64,000 nt of DNA from Russula earlei (taxonomy: Eukaryota; Basidiomycota; Agaricomycetes; Russulales; Russulaceae), in contig JAGFNK010000256.1 of the NCBI GenBank assembly GCA_025769875.1, positions 1 through 64,000 of the forward strand, in the 5' to 3' direction. A program made the translations under genes and the position numbers. The notes below the pieces were generated by a model that saw nothing but the letters and a program-made list of their open reading frames with translations, searched no databases and was not told the DNA's origin. Below, piece by piece: positions 27,592 through 55,653 of this stretch (within the stretch, counting starts at the first letter, position 1; each line of letters begins with the position of its first letter).

Positions 27592-29035
27592 GGAGATCAA
27601 CCTTGAATTACCACTGAACTGCTGGATCCGCGTCCAACCTAGACCCTCCCCTGATCTCCCTCAACATGTTGTAGGAACTGCCACTTGGGACAGCTTCCAC
27701 ACCTTCCTCTGCTATGTCACTACTGAAACCAATGAAGAACTACCTGTTGAATTCATCAACAACCACTGGTTCGAGCTACAACTCAGAAGAGGACAGCTCT
27801 ACACCCATCAAGATCTAGAACTTATCAGAAACAGCCTTGGACTAGGCTACTGGAGGAAAAATGACCCTCTTTATGAGCCCCCATCAGAAACAGAAGCCTC
27901 TTCTACAGAAGGCAACCTCCCTGAACCAGAAAACACTGCTGAAACTCAGACACCCTTTGAATCCCCTGCGTTAGAATCAGAGGACCCCCCCAAAACCCAG
28001 GAACCCACTGAACCACCAGAATCCCCAGAACCCACTATGGCAGCACAAGCCCCACAAGCTGCTCCAGCCCCCCAAGTTGCCACACAACCAGTCATAACAC
28101 CACAGGCTGCCCAAGGAACCAATGGATCCCTTAGTGGCAAAGAACCCACAGTCTTCACAGGGGAAAGAAACAAAACTAAAAGATTCATCATGGAGTTCAA
28201 CCTTTACTGGGGACTCAACAATGACAAGGCAGTCATGAGGGACCCCTCAAAAAGGGTCATCCTAGCTCTTTCCTACATTCAAGGGGAAAAGGTAGAAGAC
28301 TGGGTAAACTCACAAGTAATGGCCCTCAGAGAAAAAATAACTAGGGCCCAGAATCCCATCAACCAAAATGATGAAGTCTTGTGGACCGATTTTGTCACTG
28401 ACTTTACGTTTAAATTCACCAACACAGCAGAAAAAGAAGATGCCCAGGTGGCCCTTGTAAAACTTGAAATGAAGGATTCCCTCAATGATTACATCTCCAC
28501 CTTCGAACAGCTTCTTACCAAAACAGGATGGCCGGAGACAGACGTAATTGCCATTGAGAGTTTCAAGAATGGACTCAAAAGCGGCCTCTACCATGCAATC
28601 CTGAACAAGGACACTTGGCCTACCACTCTCCAGGAATGGAAGGAGGAAGCCAGGAGACAACACTGACGATTCATCACTATCAGGGAGAAACTCAAAGGAA
28701 AAAAGACTACACACTCCCCTTCAGAACACAAGACTCATCATCCTGACCGAATGCAAGTGGACGCTGCCAAGTCCAACTTCAAGAAACTCACTGAAGAAGA
28801 AAGAAAACAATTGGCCAAAGAAGGACGTTGCTTCCATTGCAGGGAGAAAGGCCACCTCAGTTGGGAATGCCCCAAAAATACGGTCCCTACCACTTCCAAG
28901 GCCCACATCATCGAATCAACTGCAGAACCACCCAAGGAAGAAGAAGCCTCCACTATGGTAGCTCGCATGAAAGCATTGCCAGCAGAGGATAGAGCCAAAC
29001 TGTGGGACCTCATCCTTAAAGAGGATTTTCTCTAG
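27592..29035 (+). pseudogene. gag: Chromovirus D gag
   Basis: The frame is recognisable from EINLELPLNCW to TAG at 29033-29035, with one in-frame TGA at 28665 (RRQH*RFITIRE). A Pro/Glu-rich segment is followed by a capsid-like region GTNGSLSGKEPTVFTGERNK and on to LQEWKEEARRQH, then the knuckle CFHCREKGHLSWEC (about 28830-28871). The start codon is not clear. D' is a second copy of this gene. Confidence 0.85.
29023..29029 (+). promoter_or_regulatory. Slippery heptamer for -1 frameshift (D gag/pol)
   Basis: G_GAT_TTT then CTC TAG in the gag frame; pol is open in the -1 frame (LGQGTTVGTKAQIDT). The heptamer is the same type as G_GAT_TTA used by mouse mammary tumour virus. It is identical in copy D'. 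Confidence 0.75.
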
Positions 29036-32000
29036 GCCAAGGTACAACAGTTGGTACTAAGGCCCAAATAGATACCATTGTTCAACATAAAGAAAATTCA
29101 ATGAAAGTCCCCTTTATGATCACAACAAATGGAAAGACTGGCCAAGCGCTCCTGGACAGTGGAGCAACAGAAAATTTCATCAGCCAAGGAATCATGGAAA
29201 ATTTACAAATCCCACTCCAAACCCTCAGAACCCTCAGACCCATTATTAATGTGGACAGCACTAACAACCAAGGGGGAGCACTAACCCACTACGCCCACAT
29301 AGCTGTACGTCATGGCCCCACCATGCAACTTCTCACCTTCTATGTCACAAATTTGGGAGAAGATAGAATGATCCTCGGCTACCCCTTCCTAAAAGCATTA
29401 AACCCCCTTGTTAACTGGAGCACTGGTCGCCTAAGAAACCACCTAGGGGTCCTTCTCACCCCCCGTACCTTTGGCTAACCCACCAAAAATCCAGGTTGCA
29501 CAAATCAGAACAACCACAATCCCTTCAGAATACTCATGCCACCAAAGGGTCTTCTCAGAAGAAGCAGCCAAACGACTCCCACCCAGTCGAGGAGAACTCA
29601 ACTTCAGAATCACCCTAAAACCAGATGCCCCCAAATTCCTTGATTGCCAAACTTACCCTCTCCCCCAGAATGAAAAACAGGAGGTATCAAGACAAATACA
29701 AGAAGATCTGGCCAAAGGTTTCATTGAAGATGGTATCTTGGACTTTGTATCCCCTGTCTTCTTTGTCCAAAAGAAGGATGGCACTGCCCCACAAATGGTA
29801 GTAGTCTACTGAAAGCTCAATAACACCATGGTCCCCGACTTTCATGCCTTACCAAACATGGAAGAACAGTTACACTGACTAAGAGGCAAGACCACCTTTA
29901 GTAAATTCAATGTCAGGGCTGGTTACAACAACATCCTGATTCACCCAGAAGATCAACATAAAGGTGCCTTCAAAACTCAATTTGGCACCTTCATCTCCAT
30001 GGTAATGGGCTTTGGCTTTACCAATGCCCCAGCAGCCTTCCAACAGGCAATGAACCACACCCTCCGACCCTGGCTTCTGAAGTACCCAGAAAACACCTGC
30101 AACTATCTAGATGACATGGCAATAGCCACAGGACCAGGGGAAGAACACCTTCACCAACAAATCACACATGAATTCCTGGACCTCCTTGAAAGAGACTCTT
30201 ATTTTTTGAAGGCATCCAAATGCGCCTTTGAACAAGAGGAAATCGACTTTCTGGGCTTCCAAATCAACCAAGGGACCCTCAAAATTGACCCAGTCAAAAT
30301 GGATGGCCTCAAAAACTGGCCAAGACCCCCCAATAATCTGAAACAAGTACAACAAATCATGGGCGCCCTCAATTACCAACGATCATTTATCCAAGATTTT
30401 GCTAATATAGCTCACCCCATTTTTTCTACAATCAAGAAAGGAACCCCCTTCCTCTGGACCCCAGAAGTGACTATTGCCCTAGAAACCTTGATATCAGTAG
30501 TCTGTGATGACCCTGAACCCTACACTGCCAGCCCCAACCTCCCATATGAATTAGAAACTGACACCTCTCAATTTGCCACCGGAGCGATCCTATTTCAGAA
30601 AGACCCAAGAGGAAAATGAAAAATGATTGGCAACATGTCACATGCATTCAACAAAGCAGAAAGGAACTACCCAGTTTGGGATAGGGAGCTCCTAGCCTTG
30701 ATCCTTGTGCTCCAACACTGGCAGTACCTGTTGGTCAGAACAAAACACCCCATCAAGATTTTCACTGATCATGCCAACCTTGCCCACTACCAGCTCCCCC
30801 ATAAAATTAATTGAAGGATCGCAGGTTACATTTCTACACTGGCAGATTACCATTTCGAAATTCACCACAAACCCAGAACCTCTAATCGTGCAGATGCTCT
30901 CTCACAACAACCTGACCACAATGATGGGTCAGGAGACAACCAGAACATCATGGCACTTCCTGACAAACTCTTCATCTGCACTCTCCACATGAAAGACCTG
31001 TACGAGCAAGTTTTGAAAGAACAAAAAAGACAGCAATCAGACTTGCTTATGTGGAAAACTAAACACAGTCTACAAGAAGAAGATGGCATACTGTTCAAGG
31101 ACGGAAAATTGGTTGTACCATACCAAGAACCTCTACTATGAAAGATTTTACACATGTATCATGACAGTATTCTTGGAGGACATACGGGAAATGCCCAGAC
31201 CTTGTACTCAATCCAAGAATCCTTTTGGTGGCCCAAAATGGGCTATTTTATCCAGGACTACATTTGGGGTTGCGCCACCTGTCAAACCAACAAATCCTCC
31301 ACGCACCCCATTCAATCTCCAATTCACCCAATTCCTCCCAAATTGTAGAAACCATTTCAAACCATTGTAATAGACTGGATTGTCAATCTCCCTGCTATCA
31401 GAAGGAAACAACACCATCATGACCATCACCGATCATGACTCTACCAAAGTGGCAATATTCATACCATGTCATAAAGACATGGGAACCCTAGAAATGGCCA
31501 AATTATTCTTATGACATGCCTTCCCTTGGACTGGAGTCCCCTCCAAAATCATTTCCAATCGTGATTCTTGCTTCACCTCTGACCTATTCAAAGAAGTCTC
31601 TCAAATTCTGGGGATCAATCAAAATTTAAGTACCACCTATCACCCTCAAACCAATGGACAGTCCGAAAGAACCAATCAAACTCTAGAGATGTATCTCCAC
31701 ATCTACACTGGGGAAAAACAAGGAGAATGGGTACACTGGCTCCCCATAGCCCAATACCACTTCAATGCTCATAAGTCTGCAACCACCAAACAAACCCCCT
31801 ATGAATTACTCATCGGCTTCAACCTACAAGGGCTTGGCACACAACTAAAATCCAAGTTCCCAGGAATTCAAGAATGACTCCAGGCCCTAAAAGATATGCG
31901 AGAATTGGCTCAAGAAGCAATAAAAAGGCGCAAAACAGTTGGGTAAAAGAAACTAAGTTCAAGGGGTTCGAAGAAGGACAGAAGGTCTGGTTGGAAGGAA

Positions 32001-32395
32001 CTAACCTAAAAACCCCCCATCAGTTTCAGAAGTTCCACCCCAAACGGTTCAGACCCTTTGTTATCACCTAGAAATCTCCCAAGTTGTCTACCAGCTCCAC
32101 CTCCCCCCTCAATGGAATATCCACAACATCTTCCATGCCTCCCTTCTGTCACCTGTCACTGAAACAACCAAACATGGTCCTAACTTCCCTGAACCCCCCC
32201 CCCGACCTCCTCTCGGGAGAATATGAGGTTGAGAAGATTACCACCCAATGTCTCCATAGGAACCAACTCCAGTACAGAGTCCAGTAGAAAGGATACTCCA
32301 TGGCAGAAGACACCTGGGAACCCCTTTAAAACCTTAAAAACACCCAAGACGCCATCACCATCTTTCACCTACAACAACCCACTAAGCTCCGCACC
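29030..32395 (+). pseudogene. pol: Chromovirus D pol (PR-RT-RNase H-IN-chromodomain)
   Basis: Landmarks: protease LLDSGATENFI (about 29149), then a frame change near 29470; RT with SPVFFVQKKDG, FSKFNVRAGYNN and intact NYLDD (about 30100); RNase H ELETDTSQFATGAILFQ and FTDHANLAHY; IN zinc region HDSILGGHTGN through CATCQTNKS; integrase core FIPCHKD, PSKIISNRDS and SERTNQ; and chromodomain EVEKITTQCLHRNQLQYRVQ through AEDTWEPL (about 32215-32310). Numerous frameshifts and stops (TGA most often, also TAG and TAA) inactivate it. Confidence 0.87.
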
Positions 32396-32510
32396 ATGTC
32401 TACCACCAACTCTAACCCCACAGAATCTCGTCAAACAGACGAAAGTCTGGACGACTTAGAACACCAGTTTCAAACACTTACAATACAACAATGTACATTA
32501 CTCCCCTGAG

Positions 32511-38222: not shown

Positions 38223-39946
38223 CTCGATGTAATCAAGACAACCTACCTGAACATATCACTGGTAAAGCCTTTTGGCACCCCACTGAACCTGAAGTAGGAT
38301 ATTACCTCCACATCGAAAACCTTTACCACCCTATCAAATTTATCAACGGACGTTGGTATAAACTTGATAGATGAGAAGTCAGACTTCACCTTGAATACGC
38401 CACTCATGAAGGCCTTGTTCTCAACAATGAAGAACACGGTTTAGGAACTTGGGATCAATCAGACCCCCAGTACCAACTCTTTCAATACCAACCTTCACCC
38501 TCTCTTGGAAGACATCGTTTATCTTCGGCAGAAGAATCCCAATGACCTTCCTCTCGACCTCAAACCAGACAACCTTCACCTGGGTTATCTCCTATACATC
38601 TAGCAGTAGAAGCCATGCCAGCACCCAAACCACTTCCTGTACCACAAAGGATCTTTGGTATCGCTCGCATACCCACTCCTAGACCTCTTACCCCTCCTAC
38701 TCCACCTTCACCTCCTACTCCACCTTCTCCAGCTATGGCTGCCATAGTCCCAATCCCTTCTAACGGAGCGGTTAGGGGAAACCCACCATCTATTTTCGAT
38801 GGAGACTGCTCCCAATCCTCCAAATTCATGAGAGAGTTTGCCATCTTTCACAATATGAATGATGAAAACTCCCTCGTCAACAACCCCTATAGACGAGTTA
38901 ACACTTGTCTATCCTTTATAAGAGGCCCTAACGTGGACCATTGGGTTGACACTCAACTGGAAACACTCAATAATAGCGTCAACACTCTTGGAATACTCAG
39001 GACTGACGAAGCTCTATGGAATGACTTTAGAAATGTGTTTAACAAGGCCTTCACCGACACTAATAAAAGGCAAAATGCATTCAATAAACTAGCTGTTCTA
39101 AGGCAACAAGGACCTGACCTGGACTCTTATATTGCCACCTTTACCAACCTTGCCAATGACGCAGGATATGACCTAAACACAAATGGAACTCTAGACTACT
39201 TTGCTAGAGGTCTCAGTAGGCCACTCCTTAACAACATCTTATTAAGGGAAACCCTACCTACCAATTTCACGGAATGGACTGAAGCCGCTATAAAGGAACA
39301 TAACAAATATGCCGTGAGGCAAAGCTATATGGGAGATATACGCAATATCATGCATAACCCCCAACGATTCCTTAACTTCCGTCCTACCAACACTACATTC
39401 CGCCCTCCTCCTGGACCGCCTCCTAGGGTTAATCCTACTTTTGTACCAAGGAACCCTACAGGTCAATTTATTCCTAGAGGCAACAACCAAGTTGTTCCAA
39501 TGGATGTTGATCGCACTAGAGTGGCCACTACTGAGCAAGAGAAGAAACAACATCAAGTCGAAGGTCATTGCTTCTTTTGCTCTAAACAAGGACATGTTGC
39601 ACGCAATTGTCCTAACAAGTCGACCACCTTCAAATCAGTTCCTATGAAAACATGTCTGGTTGAAGTTATCGAACCAGATGAATACCAGGAACTATATTAC
39701 CCTGAAGAACAGATTGACACCCATGTTCACTTAGCTCAAACTGACGAACAACCAACCAAATATTATCAGGAAAATCCCCCTGATGATCAACTAGTCCAAC
39801 AACCTACTCAACAGGAGTCACACTCTTATAATGAAGGACCATCTCCTGAGGAAGTTGCAGCTATAATGTCTGGATATTCGGAAGAACAACATTGCTCATG
39901 GGCTACTGCCATGGTCAATAACGGTGTGGATTTTCCCCCAGCTTGA
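38223..39946 (+). pseudogene. gag: Chromovirus G gag, 5'-truncated
   Basis: The frame is open from the D' junction to TGA at 39944-39946, with two internal TGA codons (about 38372 and 38542). The N-terminal part (EVGYYLHIENLYHPIKFING) parallels the D and B gag N-termini. Then come a Pro/Thr-rich linker, a capsid-like region (FDGDCSQSSKFMREFAIFHN onward), a Pro-rich stretch and knuckle CFFCSKQGHVARNC (about 39571-39612). A C-terminal acidic tail ends ...GVDFPPA. The 5' LTR has been lost. Confidence 0.85.
39928..39934 (+). promoter_or_regulatory. Slippery heptamer for -1 frameshift (G gag/pol)
   Basis: G_GAT_TTT, 9 nt before the gag stop. The -1 frame reads GFSPSLNYPALI, one TGA, then AVFPSNVFVARLN into protease. 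Confidence 0.75.
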
Positions 39947-42900
39947 ATTACCCGGCCTTAATTTGAGCTGTCTTCCCTAGTAATGTATTTGTAGCAAGAC
40001 TCAATTCAATCAAAGTTCCTGTTCAAATACGCACTAGTGGACAAAGGGTCGATCTCGTCGCTCTACTTGATAGTGGAGCAACCAACAATTTCATCCACAA
40101 GAATATCATCATTCGCTATAAACTCCCAGTTACCACTCTACAAAAACCGAAGGTCATGCGCAATGTAGATGGTACTCACAACAAAGCCAGAACTGTCACC
40201 GAAGCAGTCGATCTTTACGTTCGATTTAAAGGACAAGAACATCGAATGCACTTCTATATTGCTGAAATATCAACCGATGACATGCTTCTTGGCTTCCCAT
40301 TCCTTCGTGCTACCAACCCTGCTGTTGATTGGACCAAAGGAACCCTTGAGGATACTGTTGTAGCCTCCACTTGGGACGCCGACAAATGGATCAAGCGACT
40401 TCCTATACCCCCACACTTTGATCCTACTCCAATTGTTGAAGCAGATGGGCGCAGGTTATGATAAGAGCGATAAGATCCTTAAGATCTATCAAAGATATTT
40501 CAGTATTGTGTAAGACAAGACTATAATTCAGTAATACCTATCAAAGATATCTACAACGCGTGATTAGATGCGATAGATAAGATAGGAAACAGTAAGTACT
40601 CACTTCAGTATTGTGTAAGACAAGACTGAAGTGATCTATCGAAATACGACGCTCTTAAGTACTCCAGAGCGTCTCTAAGTACACTGCAAGTAGCTACCAT
40701 CAATAAGAAACAAAGATCATACAAGGATCAGTCGTTAGTAGCTACCGATTGTCATCAATTAACTTATCATTGTAAGTAATGCAGATCTCAGCATATGAGC
40801 TGAGCCGGTGATGCCCAGTCCATGTAACCGACGCGTCAACGCGTCTGAGCTGTGATTACATCACAACGTCCCAGGGTAGTGGTAACACACCAAATCAATG
40901 ATAATCTCAACACCAATCAGAGTAGCAAAAATTAGCACTTCTACCCAACTAGCTGCACAAGCAGCTGATCAAGACAAGAAGGACTGGAAGGATTTAGTTC
41001 CTCCCAACTATCATCACTTTGAAAGGCTCTTTTCTGAAGAAGCCTCTCATCACTTTCCTACTTCCAAACCTTGGGATCATGCCATAGACCTAATCCCTGA
41101 CGCTCCATCTATGCTCAATTGCAAGATCTACCCTCTTGCACCAGTGGAACAACAGGCCCAAGATGAATTCCTAAAGGAACATTTGGAAAAAGGATATATA
41201 TGTCCTTCAAAATCACCATATGCCTCTCCTTGCTTCTTCGTAGGCAAGAAAGATGGTAAACGACGTTACGTCCAAGACTATAGACGTCTTAATGCAATCA
41301 CTGTTGAAAACAAAACCCCCCTTCCTCTCATTCCTGAAATCATCACTCGCTTGGGAAGTAAACAATACTTCACTAAGTTTGACGTACGATGGGGTTATAA
41401 CAATATACGCATCAAAGATGGTGATCAATGGAAGGCAGCATTCAAAACAAATAAGGGCTTATTCAAACCTATGGTGATGACCTTTGGTCTCACTAATGCC
41501 CCTGCCACCTTCCAATCTATGGTCAATGATATCTTTAGAGAAGAACTCAACCATCATGATGTGGAGTTCCACATCTACATGGATAATGGCATCATCGCCA
41601 CACAAGCATCTAAAGGATGGGAGTGTCACAAAGACCTTGTTACTCGCATCTTTAAGAAGCTTCAAGATAATGACCTTTTCCTTAAACCTGAGAAATGTCA
41701 ATTCCACAAAGAAGAAATTGACTATCTTGGTGTCATTATCGGCAAAGGAATGATCAAGATGGACCCAATCAAAGTCAAGGGAATTTGTGATTGGAAAGCC
41801 CCTACCAACCTACATGAGCTACGCTCTTTCCTTGGATTTGGGAACTACTATCGCAACTTCATTCCAAAATATTCAGATATCGTTCAACCTCCAGTCTGGC
41901 TCACAAAGAAAAACAAACCCTGAAGTCTGGGTTGCGAAGAACAAAGAATATCGACACTGGCTACTTGGGGCACGTCATGAAGTAACTATTCGCACAGATC
42001 ATGCCAATCTAGCCTACTTCCGCAAACCCCAGGACCTTTCACCACGTCAAGCAAGGTGGATGGCCCTTCTCCAGGAATACAACTTCAAGTTGACGACTAT
42101 CCCTGGAAAGTCTAACACTGTTGCCGATATTCTATCACGACAACCTGATCACAAAGGAGAAAACATCCATAACAAAGCTATCACACTCCTACCTGATCAT
42201 GTCTTCAATGAGCACTTGCAGATGGCAAACGTCCCTGAAGCTCGTGCTCCTACCCTTAACTGTACCTTTGGCGATAACCAGGAAGCTTTTGCACGCAAAG
42301 CTTACTCACACAAGTCACTCCCCTTACGAACTTACCTACCTGATGACCCCATTTTTCGATGGGAAGTCTTGAAGGAAGTCCATGATTCCCCAGTGGGAGG
42401 ACACCCTGGCATCGCTAACACCTGGGATCTTATAAGAAGGAAATATGAAGGACCCAGACTCCGTCTATTTGTGGAAGAATACGTCAAGGGATGCGCTAAG
42501 TGTCAAGAATCTAAAGCCATCACCACCCTGAAACATGCGCCACTCCAACCATTTGATACAAATGTGTCAGCTGGCCCCTTCCAATATGTTTCAATGGACC
42601 TTATCACAGATCTTCCAAAGTCCGGATCATATGATTCCATTCTTACTATCGTCGATCAAGGTTGTTCAAAGGCCACAAAGTTTATCCCCTGCAATAAAAT
42701 CATAGATGGTCTGGGCATCGCCATCAAGTACCTGGCTAATCTATTTCCATGGTTTGGAATTCCCAAGAGAATCATCTCTGACAGGGACCCCCGTTTCAAA
42801 GGAAACTTTGCCAGGGCCATCTGTAAAGCCACAGGGATCAAACAAAATTTGAGCACTGCCTTTCACCCACGCACGGATGGACAAACCGAGCGGATGAACC

Positions 42901-43741
42901 TCTGGATAGAGACTTATCTGAGGGAATTTGTAAATGGACGGCAAAATGATTGGCACACACTACTTCCTATTGCTGAGTTTGCTCACAATACTTGGCGACA
43001 TGAAGGCACCAGGCACACACCACACGAACTTCTTCTTGGCTTTAACCCAACTGCCAAATGGACAACAATGGACATATCTGTTCCTGAGGCTGAAACACAT
43101 CTCAAAATCATGGAACAGGTACGATCCAGGGCACAGGAGGAACTTCTGAAACGTATCAAACCATCAGAAGAACCAAGGAAGCTCAAAGAAGGACAACTCG
43201 TGTGGCTGGATGGACATAATCTAGTGGTCAAGGCCCCATCAAAGAAGCTTGCCCCCCAGCGTTATGGACCATTTGAGGTGATACAACAAATCACACCAGT
43301 GGCATATTGCATCAAATTGCCCCCATCAATGAAAATCCACAATGTGTTTCATGTGGATCTTCTCATGCCATTCACTGAAACAGGGGCATATGGCAAAGCT
43401 TTCACCCGACCACCACCTGACATTGTACAAGGGGAAGAAGAATATGAAATTGCTGCTATCATCAGAGACAGGATGTACCAAGGCAGGACACAATACCTTG
43501 TTCATTGGGAAGGATACCCAGTTTCGGAGCGCTCATGGGTCAATTCTGCTGACTTTTACGCTCCGGCTCTACTCAAAGACAAATTCCCCTGTGGGTGGAC
43601 GAGCTCATGTATAAAAACCCTCCTCCTGAACTCGAGACGGCAGAGCATCTTCTACAACTTGCTTGCCATCTCATCCACTCTACCTACCAAACTACTCCTT
43701 CACCTTCTTCACCTTCAAACTCTACCTCCTCTCATATCTGC
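39935..43741 (+). pseudogene. pol: Chromovirus G pol (PR-RT-RNase H-IN-chromodomain)
   Basis: Protease LLDSGATNNFIHK (about 40066); the frame is broken by LTR I3 and resumes TPIRVAKISTS in the correct phase. RT has YRRLNAITVENKTPLP and FDVRWGYNN, but the catalytic box is YMDN instead of YMDD (about 41566-41580). About 90 residues of RNase H are deleted after VWLTKKNKP (41923), then RTDHANLAYFRK follows. The integrase is long and intact to the eye: HDSPVGGHPGI through CAKCQ, SMDLITDLPKSGSYDS, SDRDPRFKG and DGQTERMN. The chromodomain is EEYEIAAIIRDRMYQGRTQYLVHWEGYPVSERSWV (in that order, about 43435-43550). Confidence 0.88.
40434..40912 (-). mobile_element. Solo LTR, family I (copy I3) in G pol
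   Basis: Reverse orientation, TGTTGAAGCA to AATCTCAACA; flanks are CCAAT (40429-40433) and CCAAT (40913-40917). Removing 484 bp puts protease and RT in one frame. Confidence 0.95.
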
Positions 43742-43743
43742 CA

Positions 43744-44868
43744 ATGTCTCAATCCCCAGTTTATATTCCATCCTTGCCCACCCCGACCTACTCATCCCCT
43801 GCCTACTGTCCCTCGTCCCCAGTCCCCACTTGTGCCTCCCCCGTTCTCGCCTACCCTTCCCCCACTCTATCCTATGCCGACAACGTCGCCATCGCTTCCC
43901 CCACTCCCCAACTGGCAAGAAGGTCTTTACCCTTCAAGAACCCTCCTGCCTACGAGTGCGATGAGGACGACGATGACGCTGTCGCCTGAATCTGTCTCTC
44001 CCCTTTATCACCATCCATCTCCCTCTCCTCCACCCTTCTCGGATCTGACTGCAATGCCCTGGGACTTGACCTTTTCCCAGCACGCACTCCATCCCCATTC
44101 TCCCTTGCCGAACAATTCGAGGCCGCCAAATTCTTTGACACCCCTCGCCTCCCACAACCCAGCCCTGACTGGATCCCCTCCTTGGACTACCCCCTTATTG
44201 ATTTCGCAGTCCCTGAGTACCCTGGAGGAACCATGTACAGGGAAAACTGGTTTCTTGTCAAGTTGGATGCTCGACCAGAGCCCCTCATCCACGCTACCCT
44301 TGGCAAGGGAGCCCCCATCTTCTCTCGAGTATTCACACCGATCCCCGCTGCCTGGCCCATCTCAGTCCCCAATGAGGAGCAGTGGGACATGCTCCTCGCT
44401 GACCAGCCTTACACGAACTTCGTCAATAGGGCCGTCAAGGACGACAATGACCCCTCCCTCACAGCAGGAGTCAAATCATTCAGGTACAGGACAGCGGAGA
44501 TCCTCAAAAGGAGACAAACCATATGCCTCCTCTTCGCCCAAATACTCGAACATCAAGGCCACCTTAAAGAAGTCAAACAAACCCTTGCCGCCGCGAATAC
44601 TCTCAATCGGGTTACCCTCAACCTCAGGTGGCAAGACAGATCAGACGAAGAAGAAGATGGTAGTCACCTACAGGAACTTATGCAACTCGATTCGTCTTCC
44701 TCTGCCGACTCCTTCCGACTCTCTGGTTCATCCTTCGCATCCAACTCTCCCAGACTCCCACCAATCTCCTCCCGTCACTCCAGAAAATCCTGCTTTCATT
44801 GTGGTGAATTGGGGCACATTCAACCAAACTGTCCCAACAGAGGAGATCATCAAACAAAAAGGGTATGA
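43744..44868 (+). pseudogene. Chromovirus G ORF3 (env-position protein with intact CCHC knuckle)
   Basis: 375 codons from MSQSPVYIPSLPTP to TGA, with a single in-frame TGA at 43987-43989. The N-terminus is Ser/Pro-rich with an acidic patch (ECDEDDDDAVA). A globular-looking middle follows (YRENWFLVKLDARPEPLIHA, FTPIPAAWPISVPNEEQWDM), then a helical stretch (AEILKRRQTICLLFAQILEH onward) and knuckle CFHCGELGHIQPNC at 44791-44832. It sits between the chromodomain and the polypurine tract. This is the best-preserved of the three ORF3 genes. No signal peptide or membrane span is apparent. Confidence 0.75.
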
Positions 44869-44941
44869 TCTGCGAAGTCGGACCAGCCTTGGAGGAAAGT
44901 AGGTCGGCCTTATTATCATTGTTCTCACTTCTAGGGGCCTT

Positions 44942-44954
44942 GATGGGGGGGTGA
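44942..44954 (+). promoter_or_regulatory. Polypurine tract of G
   Basis: GATGGGGGGGTGA precedes the LTR. Confidence 0.75.
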
Positions 44955-45817: not shown

Positions 45818-48373
45818 ATGGCTAGTTTCCAGTGACACAAGCTCAAGTGGGATCTGGAGGACCTTATTGCCTCCTTGTCAAGACTCTGCATGTGTGACTG
45901 GGAAGACATAGACGAATACTACCAGAGTTTCAGGGCAATCTGCAGTCCCCTCGTCCATGCGTGCCGCCTGTGCTATGAAGAATGCAACGAGTCATTCTGG
46001 CTTGGACTCCACCCAGACGACCATTGGATGGTCTCCCAATGTCTCAGCCCCTGGCGCCTGAACGAACAGCAGAGGCACTTTGTCGATTTCCGAGAAGTAT
46101 TCGACACACTAGTCAAGATATTCTCTCAGCATCCCTGTGACATTCAGCAGGAATGCCAACTCTGCTCTGCAGATGAAGACGAAGACGACTACACATACCC
46201 TGTGCCCATGCCTGCTCCTGTCAAGACTCACTGTTGAACTATCCAGTTCAAGAGCGAGGGATAAGCTCGAAGACGAGTCAGTAGACGTCCAAGACCGCGT
46301 GGGCAAGGAGTAGAGTCCAGAGGAGCAACAAATACCAGAGAGGTATTGTTACTGTGAGAGTAGAACAATCACGCAGGGAAGAGGCCAGGGTAGTCACAAG
46401 GGGATGGTCCTTAAAGGAGTATCCCAGGAATGGGGAGTGCCATAAACAAATGGACAGTCTGAGGACTGTCCGCTACTTTATTGACCGCTTATATACTACA
46501 AGAGAACTGCTAAATAGGGAACAAGTCATAACCTTGTTATCAAGCACAGTAGAGTGATGAGTAAGGAGTCGGAGGACGCTTACTGAGCATGCTCAGTCAT
46601 GCTCAGTAAGCTGCTGAGTAAGAAGCTTCTTTTGATGAGTAAGAGCCTCCATAGTCCACGTGTTTACTGCTTTAGTGCACGTGCAAGCACCTGATTCATT
46701 TCCTGTTAGTTAGTTTAGGGCTGGTCATTTGAGGACTTGTAGTTTGGTTATGGAATAGTGTTATCTTATAAGGCCCTTATATAGTTCTATTAGGGTCCTT
46801 AGAGTCGACCCTAATACTTCTATTAAGGTCCTTAGTGTTGCCTTATAGTTCGTTCTATAGTTATTAGAGTTGGTCTAATAACGCGTTGTAGGGCCTTTGA
46901 TACTAGGTTAGTACCTATTGCAGAGTTCCTAGGGTCGTTCCAAAGGGTCCTTAGGAAGGCCCTAATACTGTCTTTTGTTGCTAGAAGGGTTGGCTTTAAG
47001 TGGGGCTTGCTGTATGTCGATTGTGCCGAGAATCGCTCACGCAACAATGCGCGCGCGATATTGTGGACACCTCTACTCACCCCTTTTGCTCGTGTGAACA
47101 GGGTGACATCATAGAGGCTGGGTTTCCTCCTATAAGGAAGGGTCCTTCAAGGGCCCTCTCCGGGGAATGGTTCATGACAGCTCCAGCCTCCATCCCTACA
47201 TTGTGCACCATCACCTCTGCCTTGCCTGCCTTGCCCATCGTCCCTGCGGTTCCCACCTCGTCTGCCCTTCCCATCACCTTGTTCACCGCCGCCATCCTCG
47301 ACTCACCAGCCATCATCTCCTTGGCTCCACCTGCCCTTGCTGTCCCAGCATCGCCTGCATTCGCCATCGTCGCCACCTCGTCTGTCCCCGCTGCCGTAGC
47401 CTCAGCCGTGACATCACCTATTGCCACTGTCCCCATCTTTGCCCAACCAGCTCCCACGCCCTCAGTGTCGCCTGCTATGGCCACTGTCTCAGCTCCATGC
47501 ACAACCACCATCTCAACCTTGCCCACTGATGTTTTAGCGCTGCCAGCCTTGTCTGCCACCCCTGCCTTCGTCTCATCCACTCCCGTGCCCTCAGTCGTCT
47601 CATCACCCTCAGTCTCATCCGTCGCCTCATCTGTCGCCACAGTAGCCTCAGTCATGCCAGCCACCGACTTCGCATCAGTCTCTGTCTTAGCCTTGCCCAT
47701 ACTCGTCAGTTCAGCCCAGTCCATCATAGCACCAGCATCACCAGCCACCGCCATCTCTACCCTGCCCTCAGCCTCAGCCTTCTCAGTCTCAGCCGCCGCC
47801 ACCACGCCCCTAGTTTTGCCAGCTGTCTTCATCACCCCAGCTTCAGATCAGTCAACCTCCACCACTGCGCTCTTAGCCTTGCCAGCTGCCTTAGTCTCAT
47901 CAGCCGCCGTAGCCTCAGCCTCAGCCACCGACGTCTTAGCGCCACACGCCACCGCCTCCACCACCATCTCACAAGCGACCGCCGCCACACCCTTGTCAGC
48001 CACAGCTGCCGTCACCCCTGTGTCGCCCTCAGTTGTCGCCTCCACCCCATCCGCCTCCACTATCACACCAGCTCAGTCCACCACCACCTTCTCAGTCTCA
48101 GCCTCAGTCTTCTCAGTCTCAGCCACCGCTTTAGTAGTTTCGTGCGACACCAGCACCGCTGCACCGTCGCAACCCCTCGCCACCAGCACCACCCCAGAAG
48201 ACCAAGAAGGCCTTGGCCACGAACTTAGCCACAACATGCCACAACAGGAGCAGAAGCCGCCACCATGCCACCGCCACAGGAGAAGCAGTCGCCGATGCCA
48301 ACAGCACACCGCACGCCGCCTCCCACATCGCCTCCCCATCCGTTCGCATGCTCTCACCCACATCTGCTGCTGA
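45818..48373 (+). pseudogene. gag: L gag-like gene, split by solo LTR A2
   Basis: Starts MASFQ, one TGA, HKLKWDLEDL. The first 125 residues have a capsid-like helical pattern (DWEDIDEYYQSFRAICSPLV, CNESFWLGLHPDDHWMVSQC) seen in basidiomycete retroelement Gag proteins. LTR A2 and its duplication (966 bp) interrupt it at MPAP; removal keeps the frame, giving 529 codons. The remainder is a very long Ala/Pro/Ser/Thr/Val repeat-like region, then His/Arg/Pro-rich sequence. No zinc knuckle is visible. The final TGA may also be a decayed codon. Confidence 0.65.
46219..47179 (+). mobile_element. Solo LTR, family A (copy A2)
   Basis: 961 bp, flanks GCTCC (46214-46218) and GCTCC (47180-47184). Confidence 0.95.
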
Positions 48374-48954: not shown

Positions 48955-50387
48955 TTGTGTGTGACATCAAGACCTTGATCGCATTGCCCAGCCCTCGCCA
49001 CCAACCATGTGCACATGCACTCCTCGGCACACTAGACATGTTCATGTCTCAAGCCTTTCATGACTGCCTCAACCATCTCGGCCAGTCTGGATTCTCTTTC
49101 ATGCATTTCATCTCTAGTACCTTCTCTCCTGTATATAAACTGTTTAGCTACTAAGTTGAAAAAGATCCCCTTTTGCCTGCTCTTCCCTCTGTCTGCCTCA
49201 AGAAGCCATCTTTGTGTCCACATCTGTGTCAAGACTCACTGTTGAACTATCCAGTTCAAGAGCGAGGGATAAGCTCGAAGACGAGTCGGTAGACGTCCAA
49301 GACGGCGTGGGCAAAGAGTAGAATCCAAAGTAGTAACAAATACCAAAGAGGTATTGTTACTGTGAGAGTAGAACAATCACGCAGGGAAGAGGCCAGAGTG
49401 GTCACAAGGGGACGGTCCTTTAAGGAGTATCCCAGGGGTAGAGAGTGCCGTAAACAAATGGACAGTCTGAGGACTGTCCGCTACTTTATTGAGCACTTAT
49501 ATACTACAAGAGAACTGCTAAATAGGGAACAAGTCATAACCTTGTTATCAAGCACAATAGAGTGATGAGTAAGAAGTCGGAGGATGCTTACTGAGCATGC
49601 TCGGTCATGCTCAGTAAGCTGCTGAGTAAGAAGACTCTTCTTGATGAGTAAGAGTTTCCATTGTCCACGTGTTTACTACTTTTAGTGCACGTGGAAGCAC
49701 CTGATTCATTTCTTGTTAGTTAGTTTAGGGCCGGTCATTTGAAGACTTTGTTAGTTTGGCTAGGGAATAGTGTCGTCTTATAAGGCCCTTATATAGTTCT
49801 ATTAGGGTCCTTAGGAAGGCCCTAATACTGTCTTTTGTTGCTAGAAGGGTTGCCTTTAAGTGGGGCTTGCTGTATGTCGATTGTGCCGAGAATCGCTCGC
49901 GCAACAATGCGCGCGCGATATTGTGGACACCTCTACTCACCCCTTTTGCTCGTGTGAACAGGGTGACACCATAGAGACCAGGTTTCCTCCTATAAGGAAG
50001 GGTCCTTCAAGGGCCCTCTCCGGAGAATGGTTCATGACAATCTGCGCTCAGCATTCCAGCTGGGACTGCTCCCCTCCCCTCTCTCCTCTCCTCTTACCTT
50101 GGACCAGTCAGCCTTATGATCTCACTCATGCGTCCCTGGACTTGCTACACCGTCTCAACCAGTCTTGATTCACTTTCATGCCTTTCATCTCTAGTACCTC
50201 TCTCCTGTATATAAAAACACCCTAGCTACTCTGTAGTAGAAAGAGTTCAGAATAGATCCCTCTTTGCAACCCACTCCTTTCTGTCTGTGAAAAACAAGAA
50301 GGATGGTCAGAATCGAGAGGTGAGAGGGGTGATGAGTGGCTGGCCGTGACTCCAATCGCACTGGAAACAATGTTGCACACCACAACA
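48955..50387 (+). mobile_element. Family H LTR remnants (H2 and H3), interrupted by A3
   Basis: Two H-like promoters (CTCCTGTATATAAA near 49129 and near 50205) share sequence with H1. H3 ends CACCACAACA at 50387. The left limit is uncertain. Confidence 0.5.
49227..50039 (+). mobile_element. Solo LTR, family A (copy A3), internally deleted
   Basis: Flanks are ATCTG (49222-49226) and ATCTG (50040-50044). It is 148 bp shorter than A2; the missing part lies between two GGGTCCTTAG repeats, of which one remains (about 49805). Confidence 0.95.
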
Positions 50388-50713: not shown

Positions 50714-51700
50714 TGTTAATGGATGAAAACATCTATTACCGTACTTATGTATCGCTTTATACAATGACGAACCCATGCTTCTAGGAACTATGGGTCGAGG
50801 AGAACCCGCCTACGGAGAGAAGCTCATCGCCCGACCTGACGTCTCTGCCCCCCATCCCTCTACCACTGCCTCTGACCTTCACCTCTTAATTGAGGATCAC
50901 CCCTTCCACTTTGATGTTGCTCAGGCTTTGGAAAACCTCCACGACCTGGGTGCCCTTGCTGACGTTTACGGCCTTCGTGTCAGCTCATTTCAGTTGAAGG
51001 TCTTGGAGGGCAAGCGCACCTCTATCCAAGGAGCCTTAAGCATCCTTCAAGGGCAGCTTGCTGACCGACTCCACGAGATTCAATCTCACACCAAAGAAAC
51101 CGCTGCCATCCACAGCTGCCTCCGAGCCAACAACACTTCCATCTGAGTCTGTCACCAACTCGACAATCTGATGACCAACAGGGGCCTCACTTGTAGCACT
51201 GGGCCATATTACTCACTAGCAGGGAGCTACGACAGAGTCGAAAAATCAGAAGAACCATTCGCTCCCCCTTCCCCTCCACTACCCACTCATCCCCCCTTTC
51301 TGTAACCCCCCCTCTTGAATACCTCCCTCGTGTCATCGATCAATCTCAAAACAACGCCCCCATGGGGTCACCCTCCCAATTCCCACAAATGTTCTCAGAC
51401 AATGCTAGTACCCCCAACACTCCTCTTACCCCCGCACACATGACCAAAGCACAGCATCACCAACTCCAGAAATGGCAACAAATTTGCAAACATTGTAACA
51501 CTAGGGGTCACTGGAACAAGGACTGCAATAAACCTCACACTAACTCTAGTGGACAGGTGGACTGCATACTCAGGAGGACTCATCAAAGCTATAGGGGCTT
51601 CTGCCCTAGAGCAACAGGACCACAGAGTGCATGGCCAGAGGTTGAAGGTGAAGAACTCTGTGAGTCGGGCCCTGAAACCAATTAGTTCGGAGAACTAAGC

Positions 51701-52314: not shown

Positions 52315-53997
52315 GCAACCACCAACAAGATGACTGGGTGGACTGGCTACCTCTGGTGCAATACACGATGAATTCTAATGTTTCAGAGACAACCAAGCAG
52401 TCCCCTTTCTTCTTATGGATGGGCTTTATGCCCAAGGCACACCAGCCAAATTGGGGAAGCAAGATACCAAGAATAGACAATTGGAAAGTCCGAATCCAGG
52501 AAGTGAGATCACAGGCACAAGAAGCAATGAAGATCGCTTCCCTAATGTGGAAGCGAAGAAGTGGTTTCCAACCTTATCAGAAAGGAGAAAGGGTATGGCT
52601 CAACAGCACCAACCTAAAAATGACCCATCCTACAGTAAAACTACACCCTGTCAAGACTCACTGTTGAACTATCCAGTTCAAGAGTGAGGGATAAGCTCGA
52701 GAATGAGTCGATAAACGTCCAAGACGGCGTGGGCAAGAAGTAGAGTCCAGAGTAGTAACAGATACCAGAGAGGTATTGTTACTGTGAGAGTCGAGCAGTC
52801 ACGCAGAGGAGAGGCCAGGATAGTCACAAGGGGACGGTCCTTAAAGGAGTATCCCAGGGATGGAGAGTGTCGTAAACAAATGGACAGTCTGAGGACTGTC
52901 CGCTACTTTATTGAGCGCTTATATATGTACTACAAGAGAACTGCTAAATAGGGAACAAGTCATAACCTTGTTATCAAGCACAATAGAGTGATGAGTAAGA
53001 AGTTGGAGGACGCTTACTGAGCATGCTCAGTCATGCTCAGTAAGCCACTGAGTAAGAAGGCTTCTCTTGATGAGTAAGAGCTTTCATTGTCCACGTGTTC
53101 ACTGCTTTAGTGCACGTGCGAGCACCTGATTCATTTTCTGTTTAGTTAGTTTAGGGCCGGTCATTTGAGGACTTGTAGTTTGGTTAGGGAATAGTGCTAT
53201 CTTATAAGGCCCTTATATAGTTCTATTAGGGTCCTTAGAGTCGACCCTAATACTTCTATTAAGGTCCTTAGTATTGCCTTCATAGTTCATTCTATAGTTA
53301 TTAGAGTTGGTCTAATAACGCGTTGTAGGGCCTTTGATACTAGGTTAGTGCCTATTGTAGAGCTCCTAGAGTCGTTCCAAAGGGTCCTTAGGAAGGCCCT
53401 AATACTGTCCTTCGTTGTTAGAAGGGTTGCCTTTAAGTGAGGCTTGCTGTATGTCGATTGTGCTGAGAATTGCTCGCACAACAATGCGTGCGCAATATTG
53501 TGGACACCTCTACTCACCCCTTTTGCTCGTGTGAACAGGGTGACACCATAGAGGCTGGGTTTCCTCCTATAAGGAAAGGTCCTTCAAGGGCCCTCTCCGG
53601 AGAATGGTTCATGACACACCCAAAACGTTATGGGCCCTTTGAAATCACAGAGGTGATCAGCCCGGTGACATACAGATTGGATCTCCCTAGCCACTGGAGG
53701 ATCCATAACACCTTTCATGTGTCCTTATTAACACCTTACAAGGAAACGGAGGAGCATGGGGCCAACTACACCAATCCAGAAGCAGAATTAGTGGAGGGAG
53801 AGGAGGAATACGAAGTAGCAACAATTTTAGGTTCAAGATGAACTGGAAGGAGGAAACAATTGGAGTATCAAGTCCGGTGGGAAGGATACTTTGAAGCCCA
53901 TGACTCTTGGGAGCCAGTAGAGAACATCAAGGCATCTAGACTAATAGAGGAATACCACAGAAAGAACCCCACCACCATATGGGTTATAAAAGTCCAG
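52315..53997 (+). pseudogene. pol: Chromovirus B pol, C-terminal part (integrase end and chromodomain), split by LTR A4
   Basis: After the GCAAC duplication left by D the frame resumes with DDWVDWLPLVQYTMNS, the rest of the integrase core, then SGFQPYQKGERVWLNSTNLK. LTR A4 (52649-53616) breaks it before KRYGPFEITEVISPVTYRL, and removal restores the frame. A chromodomain follows (EEEYEVATIL ... LEYQVRWEGYFEAHDSWEPVENI, about 53800-53935) with one TGA at 53839. Chromodomains of this type direct integration to modified histones. ORF3 follows without a gap. Confidence 0.88.
52649..53616 (+). mobile_element. Solo LTR, family A (copy A4) in B integrase
   Basis: Flanks are CACCC (52644-52648) and CACCC (53617-53621). 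Runs TGTCAAGACT to TTCATGACA, 968 bp. Confidence 0.95.
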
Positions 53998-54042
53998 CAA
54001 AGGATGCCCTCTACTTCCTCACCCCCATATTGTCACTCACAA

Positions 54043-55653
54043 ATGTCTCAAACTCCTACTAATGAAATTGTTCCCCAATCCAGCCTCTCTGGTGCAGAGG
54101 GACCACTTGAAATCACTACTCCTGATGCTTCCCTCTTCACCTTCTTCCAAGAAATGGATGAACACAGCACTGGAGAAGGAGAAGCAGACATGCGTCCCCT
54201 CAAATTTGGGCCCCCTGCTGACCAAGTCGACACTCAGCCTGGGGACTGGGATGTGATGTCCCCTACCAGCACTCTTGACCAGGTTGCCCACCCTGGAGAG
54301 CCTTGGGTACAATGGGACACTGACAGACACCACACAGGGATCGACATCCCTGATGGTGTGACTTGGGGCAACAAACCAGCCAGGTATGTGGCCTATGACA
54401 TTGCCTTGGGAGAGCTGAGGGTGAGGGGGAAGAATGGAGAAGGCCATGGAGACTATGGCAAGATCCTCCAAGCCACCCCTTGCTACAACCTTTATAACTA
54501 CGGCCAAGATGAACATGATCTAGACTGCTTTGACACTGAGAAGCAGTTCAAAGGGCGATGAAGACAGACCCTCTACCTGCTAGGCAACTACGGGCTACAG
54601 GCAGAGCTCTATTGCTTAGACCACCTCTACACCCAACAAGAGATGTTGGAAGCTAACTACAAGGTGCTTGAAGAAGAAGAGAAGCAGCTATGCTACAAGC
54701 TAGGTAAATACCTGGCTGAGAAGCGAAGAGTAGAGAGAGGCAGGGCTGAAGCCAAGGAGAGAATGGCAGCAGCCAAAGTATGATCCCATTGCTGGGATTT
54801 CATTGAAGCAGGCTGTAGCCAGGGAGAAACCCCTCCAGGCATATGGGCTGAAGAACTCCTCACCAACTACTGGGCTGGACAGCCTACTCCCCCTCTCCCT
54901 GTCTTCATCCCTCAGCTGCCTTTGGCAGACATCGCTCAGGGGTATAACCCCTCTACCCCAGAACCAGTACCCGCGAGCCCTGCACCTACAACTGTGCAAG
55001 GTTATTCAGAGGAGGAGATCAACATCCTCCAAACCATGTCTGGTATGTGCCTTTGAGGAGGGGCAGGATCAGAAGTGTCACCAAACCCTTCCCCTCAGAG
55101 CTCCATCTACTACCACTCCTATAGCAGCAGTGGAGAAGCATCCGCCAGAATGGCTGAGTTCATTCCAGAACCTCAGCAACTGAACATGATAGAAGGAAGG
55201 AGGAAGAGGAACCGATGCAAGTATTGTGGTGAGGTAGGACACTTCAATAAGTACTATCCACTGCCACACCAGTACTGCCATGACCAGCTGGCAGCAGACA
55301 CTGCCTCACATTGCCCAGTGCCCCCCTATCATCATTCCTACACACCCATTAGATCATGCCCTTTCCATTGAGGATGGGAATTGGCACACCCGAGCAAGAA
55401 GAGGAAGTCCGACCAGGAGAGGGAGGACGTTGCTAACCCACACATCTTGCAGGTAGCGAAAGGAGAAGGGTCCAAGACCCTTCAAGAGCTTTTTACTACA
55501 TCCCCTCTCCACTCCGACACACCTCCAGTCAGGAGGTTACCCAGGGACTCTGACAGACTCCCACAGATCATGTCTCCTTCAGCCATCACTGAGGAGTCAG
55601 AGGCGATAGCAGCCTCAGCATTGGCTGCCTATGAGGTGGCAGAAGAAGGCTGA
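54043..55653 (+). pseudogene. Chromovirus B ORF3 (env-position protein with second zinc knuckle)
   Basis: The first Met reads MSQTPTNEIVPQ, just after the chromodomain and in its frame. The predicted protein has an acidic, Pro/Ser-rich N-terminus, a globular-looking middle (WVQWDTDRHHTGIDIPDGV), and a long charged helical stretch (QTLYLLGNYGLQAELYCLDH through EEEEKQLCYKLGKYLAEKRR). Then comes a knuckle CKYCGEVGHFNKYY (55216-55257), whose last Cys is Tyr, and a tail of about 130 residues. In-frame stops at about 54559, 54781, 55055 and 55370 are TGA. There is no signal peptide or membrane segment, so it is not a typical envelope protein. Equivalent ORFs occur in D and G. The function is unknown. 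Confidence 0.7.

Follow-up and report, generated by a model that had tools for sequence, protein, structure and literature searches.

The usual picture of LTR elements has gag and pol and, as a third gene, envelope; overprinting is known chiefly from viruses. Additional ORFs of LTR retrotransposons are nevertheless a known kind of gene, and the ORF3 module described herein is filed with them. In fungi, Novikova et al. 2010 (PMC2864245) list, in the legend to their Figure 3, an additional ORF of unknown function in Gypsy elements, and PMC2774666, in the part available, states that one clade of fungal chromoviruses has additional genes, citing two papers, one of them on dUTPase elements. The accessible portion of PMC3248453 covers gag, pol and inserted domains only, and PMC3411680, on Laccaria transposons, makes no mention of ORF, chromodomain, env or zinc. 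Bdelloid rotifer LTR retrotransposons are described in the sections at hand of PMC5408684 as carrying a non-envelope ORF3 after pol in several lineages, and plant Retand elements, according to the available text of PMC11963269, have conserved additional ORFs (TRP28) between pol and the 3' LTR that are possibly DNA binding. For viruses, the accessible part of PMC3744397 presents a deltaretrovirus 'gene nursery' of overprinted accessory genes, and that of the review PMC8227390 reports that overlapping proteins are more disordered.

The locus reported here lies in a 64,000-nucleotide stretch of Russula earlei DNA, the whole of which is called the window. It resembles the elements of PMC2864245, which are fungal Gypsy elements, many with chromodomains and Agaricomycetes included; their additional ORF, given in the text available without sequence, position, knuckle or selection, is at most a possible counterpart of ORF3. 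The bdelloid ORF3s are likewise non-envelope and placed after pol, but those named in the accessible part of PMC5408684 are of the GDSL lipase, DEDDy exonuclease, TM and coiled-coil types, with a Zn knuckle mentioned for Juno. Retand shares a conserved additional ORF in the interval between pol and the 3' LTR; as far as the available text of PMC11963269 goes, however, its conserved ORFs are antisense, belong to non-chromovirus elements and encode a different domain. With retroviral and Ty3 nucleocapsids ORF3 shares a C-terminal CCHC knuckle of one or two motifs, yet ORF3 lies outside Gag, and only the knuckle is similar to the Gag of its own element, which has its own knuckle. The putative overlapping gene, ORF-B, is like the overprinted viral accessory genes in being a new frame over an older gene, with a Pro/Ser-rich product; unlike them, it belongs to an LTR retrotransposon of a fungus, covers a gene linked to Pol, and has a start that overlaps the pol stop. 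The literature search, largely confined to freely accessible papers, found no description of the ORF3 module or of the overlapping gene in such elements among the texts and portions of texts available.

Element G and its third open reading frame

The element that carries ORF3 in the window (element G) is a chromovirus, with RT, integrase, a C-terminal chromodomain and a Ty3-type Gag with a CCHC motif. The Gag, at 38615-39946 upstream of ORF3, was recognized by Pfam through Retrotrans_gag (E 2e-6, above cut-off), with Ty3_capsid (2.4e-6) and zf-CCHC (0.0031) below theirs; the pol frames matched RVT_1 (E 2e-29), Integrase_H2C2 (4.8e-16) and Chromo (1.1e-7), with rve (0.0091) below cut-off. The chromodomain (PF00385, E 1.1e-7) forms the C-terminus of the integrase at 43443..43553 (+), residues 553-589 of the ORF from 41787, and a small deletion is present near its end in G. 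The RT and integrase domains lie in broken frames; the initial annotation had noted a broken RT and RNase H beside an ORF3 with a single TGA. In most other copies of this family (family 1) the pol frame is closed by a TAA, which corresponds to 43612..43614 (+) in the window according to the junction alignment and a check of the window letters; in copy L028 and most of the other junction copies, pol stops at this TAA and ORF3 lies beyond it in the same frame. The polypurine tract was located by eye at 44934..44951 (+), and the 3' LTR starts from about 44952. The stretch 44952-45851 matches only itself within the 64-kb window, with no matching 5' LTR there. An unrelated stretch at 40460-40880 seems to break G between protease and RT. 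Further downstream, two direct repeats of 300 bp (46219-46518 and 49227-49526; 94% alike, 3008 bp apart), accompanied by more collinear repeats, flank a low-complexity open frame at 47000-48373.

ORF3 (ORF-A) spans 43744..44934 (+), 396 codons plus stop; it follows the chromodomain with which pol ends and precedes the polypurine tract. The initial annotation had proposed a separate ORF after the chromodomain, and reading and translating 43744-44868 (+) bore this out: its own Met (MSQSPVYIPS...), the Ser/Pro-rich acidic N-terminus and the C-terminal CFHCGELGHIQPNC are all present in the translation. The boundaries need revision. Besides the internal TGA at 43987-43989, which had been noted as the lone one, the stop at 44866-44868 is likewise decay and not the true end of ORF3; the in-frame stops at 43987 and 44866 of G are missing from intact copies, and in place of the 375 codons first counted, intact relatives continue to a TAG (window 44932-44934) and have 396-398 codons.

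Three features were placed along the protein. A conserved core (LIHATLGxGxP ... DPSLTAGVxxYR) at 44263..44514 (+) was delimited by invariant alignment columns, seven of which were found in each of two alignments of ORF3 with the relatives described below (P0002, P0003 and the D family, with family 2 added in one). AlphaFold2, run with the window ORF3 protein and four relatives, predicted two short strands, helices and one long helix, the latter at 44476..44640 (+) and possibly a coiled coil, with low confidence; because the mean pLDDT was only 39.9, the model is unfit for fold comparison. The CCHC zinc knuckle CFHCGELGHIQPNC lies at 44791..44832 (+), as located by a pattern scan and by Pfam zf-CCHC (23.4 bits, above the cut-off of 20.8); the ORF3 of L028 scored 19.7 bits, slightly under that cut-off. 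Pfam scans of the ORF3 proteins yielded nothing above cut-off except the knuckle, and the matches to SLATT_4, ERM_C, LRR_3 and zf-C2H2_10 in the scanned proteins were under cut-off and were treated as chance.

ORF3 is conserved across diverged families

The genome (66.6 Mb, 1374 contigs) was searched with a 292-residue part of ORF3, and at least 142 matching pieces were obtained, in places several per locus. Forty of the 142 pieces, picked for fullest coverage, were aligned with the window copy to give the 41 copies of family 1; the pol/ORF3 junction could be aligned in 32 of the 41, L018 among these only partly. At least one stop was found in the aligned stretch of 36 of the 41 copies, a count that includes the foreign DNA of truncated copies. 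Across the 820 pairs, the pooled pN/pS of ORF3 was 0.317 in its own frame, 0.73 in the +1 frame and 1.68 in the +2 frame, and it was 0.21 for codons 121-250. From about codon 92 to codon 290, nearly every window has its changes concentrated at third codon positions. The 142 genome pieces together with this frame-specific purifying selection place ORF3 beyond chance.

The four zinc ligands of the knuckle are intact in all 41 copies, ten of which have a stop between ligands. For the last 90 codons, knuckle included, selection in the ORF3 frame beyond what the overlapping +1 frame accounts for was absent on two backgrounds (P 0.37 and 0.31) and slight on a third (P 0.027). We nevertheless read the region as a knuckle that is maintained while the surrounding linker drifts, since the ligands never vary and the related protein P0002 also ends in such a knuckle. 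The subfamilies, represented by L026 and L013, differ around the knuckle (PVCPHRPDRATK vs PNCPNRGDHQTK).

Relatives were also sought among database proteins. One match, P0001, is 79% identical to ORF3. A second protein, P0002 (466 aa), is 27% identical over 234 residues (E 1.3e-13 in the large database, 2e-21 as a pair); it has the ORF3 core and a C-terminal knuckle and falls just below the Pfam zf-CCHC cut-off. A profile search with alignment A1 returned P0001 as its sole hit, probably owing to low-complexity words that filled the candidates. With P0002 as the query, a second family was detected in the same genome (family 2; E 3.5e-10 to 8.3e-7), and family 2 used as the query in turn found one protein, P0003 from Russula earlei, at 84% over a quarter of the searched region.

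In family 2, ORF3 forms a frame of its own, 415-417 codons long (three copies measured), that starts about 55 bases past the pol stop. It has two CX2CX4HX4C motifs in tandem, seen by eye and by pattern; in scans at E 1, Pfam zf-CCHC was not listed for either of the two family 2 proteins examined. Twenty of 34 rows were taken for the selection analysis. Over their 190 pairs, pN/pS was 0.122 for ORF3 and 0.086 for its core, as against 1.67 and 2.23 in the other frames; because the chosen copies leaned to open frames, the family 2 values are possibly somewhat lowered. The pol of the same 20 copies gave 0.067 and 0.093. The initial annotation had named a dN/dS below 1 as a test of ORF3, and pN/pS is well below 1 in both families (0.317 in family 1, 0.122 in family 2). 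Collectively, ORF3 is a real, conserved gene, found in diverged families with at least dozens of copies in each, and purifying selection acts on it in families 1 and 2.

A third, very abundant family (the D family; 150 matches scored of 483 candidates) has a different arrangement, with open frames of up to about 1693 aa. In the downstream piece read of one genomic copy (1692-aa frame), the extension past the chromodomain stays in a single frame across the core as far as CKHCNTRGHWNKDC and ends immediately ahead of a purine tract. Judged from the reading frames, the ORF3 domain of the D family is an in-frame extension of Pol after the chromodomain. Two further elements of the window, B and D, had been credited with a separate ORF3; taking them, in view of the missing coordinates, as the elements at about 28118-32506 and 50739-51685, we found that neither has one and that both belong to the family with the domain fused to Pol. 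Element B, as traced by tblastn at 32267..32506 (+), has a chromodomain with two stops, then the start of the fused extension in the same frame, and then a stop and other sequence; the start of its extension is the same sequence as the start of L099. Element D, at 50739..51685 (+), is a broken copy that contains a relative of the ORF3 domain (P0002 match, E 3.8e-9 in the window search), with the knuckle CKHCNTRGHWNKDC at 51485-51526 (+). The window search also revealed a further chromovirus at 53860..55260 (+), whose frame continues past the chromodomain, with three stops, to a knuckle-like C-terminus. For its family, 150 matches were scored of 361 candidates, and copy L101 has CKYCGEVGHFNKYC near the end; the extension was considered as an ORF3 homologue and gave no significant match.

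An open +1 frame over ORF3

The initial annotation recognized ORF3 as coding sequence after the chromodomain but missed a +1 frame that overlaps it. This frame, ORF-B, extends from the ATG at 43607 to the TAG at 44902 (43607..44902, +; 431 codons in the window copy, 437 in L028). This ATG and the pol stop overlap as ATGTATAA in 31 of the 32 junction copies, of which 20 have an ORF-B of more than 400 codons. In the interval that leads from the pol stop to the ORF3 Met, pN/pS in the +1 frame of family 1 was 0.262 and 0.245, and silent changes in this frame were enriched in both subfamilies (P 0.0045 and 0.009).

The openness of the frame was assessed by shuffling the synonymous codons of ORF3 with codon use kept, and three copies served as backgrounds. 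The shuffled sequences had on average about 6 stops in the +1 frame on two backgrounds and 4 on the third, against none observed (P 0.0002, 0/5000 and 0.0042); over codons 20-293, the +1 frame (frame B) was again open beyond chance on three backgrounds (P 0.001, 0.002 and 0.028). The +2 frame of family 1 has about as many stops as the shuffles predict, and the +1 frame of family 2, taken as a control, has 11 stops against 12.1 expected (P 0.39).

The alleles present in at least three copies were then compared with expectations matched for base change, CpG state and effect on ORF3. In the +1 frame, stop-creating alleles numbered 1 vs 9.6 expected and silent alleles 107 vs 85.5 expected; the corresponding values for the +2 frame were 32 vs 27.0 and 41 vs 55.1. 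The +1 stop depletion recurred on other backgrounds (P 0.0005, 0.019 and 0.0005), with P 0.052 for L009, a frame-shifted copy. On four backgrounds, family 2 showed no +1 effect, and its +2 stops were slightly below expectation (P 0.05 to 0.27). With CpG sites left out, the +1 frame of family 1 had 0 stops vs 4.7 (P 0.007) and 31 silent alleles vs 19.4 (P 0.001); by thirds, this silent enrichment was significant only in the last (P 0.003, compared with 0.15 and 0.19 for the remaining two) and stop depletion in none. When the subfamilies were analyzed apart, with alleles in at least two copies, silent enrichment was found in both (P 0.0005 and 0.0065), and stop depletion gave P 0.0165 for the V type and 0.20 for the N type. 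With CpG sites kept, frame-B silent enrichment was seen in each of three segments past codon 33 (P 0.001-0.054 on three backgrounds), and stop depletion per segment was mostly not significant. Frame B given the ORF3 frame and the ORF3 frame given frame B were both silent-enriched over the whole overlap. In the last ~42 residues of the +1 frame, 9 of the 12 amino-acid changes between L026 and L013 score above zero in BLOSUM62, as counted by eye. These statistics should be read as coming from many windows and frames, and the alleles share ancestry, so they are not fully independent.

These patterns suggest that family 1 encodes a second protein, ORF-B, overprinted on ORF3 in the +1 frame. It is quite probable that family 1 has four genes, the last two overlapping, in which ORF-B (~435 codons) would cover nearly all of ORF3 and end beside the polypurine tract, with expression by coupled termination and re-initiation. 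A rather unlikely explanation is that the open +1 frame is no gene but a by-product of pyrimidine-rich codons and recent copy expansion. The middle of ORF-B, which is Pro/Ser-rich with a pN/pS of about 1.0, would fit such a by-product, as would the lack of any match in a Pfam scan of ORF-B, the confinement of silent enrichment to the last third when CpG sites are left out and thirds are taken alone, the P values of 0.20 (N type) and 0.052 (L009) for stop depletion, and the partial dependence of the alleles. Codon composition does not readily account for the openness, however, for shuffles that preserve codon use still average 4-6 stops; the +1 frame of family 2 is without effect, and silent enrichment is found in both subfamilies and persists for the ORF as a whole when CpG sites are left out.

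Scanned in 90-base windows, the frame-B signal stands out in three places only: upstream of the Met, from +100 to +250 and from +1000 to +1090. Because this signal is strongest at both ends, we considered a single protein that switches frames from B to A and back to B by splicing or frameshift. This was rejected: the middle is silent-enriched and open in frame B, and inspection by eye turned up no convincing splice donor or slippery site. A full overlapping gene is preferred over the spliced mosaic because the middle is open.

Possible role of the ORF3 module

Taken together, it seems somewhat probable that ORF3 serves the chromoviruses of this fungus as a conserved accessory module, a second nucleocapsid-like accessory of Pol. 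The earlier interpretation holds insofar as ORF3 encodes a real conserved protein with a nucleocapsid-type knuckle and without hydrophobic segments; a separate ORF in the env position is only one of its forms, because the domain extends Pol in frame in the D family. The module would comprise a flexible N-terminus that is rich in Ser and Pro and acidic in part, a small conserved core, a long helix and a C-terminal CCHC knuckle (two motifs in family 2), placed after the chromodomain either fused to Pol, as in the D family, or as a separate ORF past the pol stop, as in families 1 and 2. The Pol-fused form would be carried into the particle along with Pol, and from this we infer an internal role for ORF3. 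The separate forms may be made by re-initiation at the pol stop, as hinted by the ATG/stop overlap in family 1, or alternatively from a short internal transcript that starts from the TATAAAA at the pol stop. The knuckle could bind element RNA or cDNA, inside the particle or the pre-integration complex, and the long helix could multimerise the protein. The chaperone, packaging or targeting functions suggested in the initial annotation would likewise be conceivable for it. Readthrough of the pol stop into ORF3 was rejected, as the stretch from the TAA to the Met is unselected in that frame (pN/pS 1.3).

The chromodomain is a targeting domain, and host RNA-processing proteins carry CCHC knuckles too. 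ORF3, which lies directly after the chromodomain or is fused to it and has an acidic stretch in its N-terminus, might instead face the host or the target site, as a chromatin, silencing or targeting factor and not a second nucleocapsid. We regard this as rather unlikely. The knuckles are terminal and of the nucleocapsid type, in tandem in family 2, a feature that speaks against such a factor while being compatible with targeting; among solved structures, many of the matches of the ORF3 knuckle are retroviral nucleocapsids, the top one being a terminal uridylyltransferase. On the other side, the plant Retand additional ORFs have been proposed as regulatory in the available part of PMC11963269.

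Much less probable is an origin of ORF3 from Gag, by duplication or by the capture that the initial annotation had raised, although a CCHC knuckle is present in both proteins. An hhalign comparison of the ORF3 profile with the Gag of G, the one Gag compared, aligned 23 columns, all of them in the knuckle, and ORF3 is in this respect unlike a captured gag. Neither Retrotrans_gag nor Ty3_capsid was found in the scanned ORF3 proteins, whereas the Gag of G matches both (Ty3_capsid below cut-off); a capsid domain upstream of the knuckle was thus seen neither by Pfam nor in the alignment to that Gag. An Env-like protein, despite the location between pol and the 3' LTR, is hardly credible and was rejected on hydropathy and Pol fusion: the five proteins tested, ORF-B included, have no hydrophobic 19-residue stretch (highest 19-residue mean 1.07 in ORF3 and less in the four related or overlapping proteins, indicating no transmembrane segment, in agreement with the absence of membrane features first reported), ORF3 has a CCHC knuckle and is fused to Pol in one family, and no Pfam envelope match was obtained.

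The module, a conserved domain with a nucleic-acid-binding motif, is kept past the chromodomain in diverged families, and it offers a marker for classifying these elements as well as a candidate for a second nucleocapsid activity. Since it is fused to Pol in one family and separate in two, the gain or loss of independence from the polyprotein can be studied in one genome. If ORF-B is translated, overprinting would have created a new gene in a retrotransposon.

The possible internal TATA box, whose function is inferred, is TATAAAAAC at 43610..43618 (+), identified at the pol stop in the alignment. The form TATAAAAA occurs at the pol stop in 30 of the 32 aligned family 1 copies, and TATAAAAAC has 3 matches in the window vs 0.22 expected. 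The pol stop of family 2 reads TATAAAA in 15 of 20 copies; because the other 5 read CATAAAA, a TATA-box promoter at the pol stop is a suggestion only. Near a neighbouring element, at 50200-50230, TATATAAAAACACC resembles both TATAAAAACACC of the family 2 pol stop and TATAAAAACCC of the G pol stop, and our guess is that position 50200 is an LTR core promoter.
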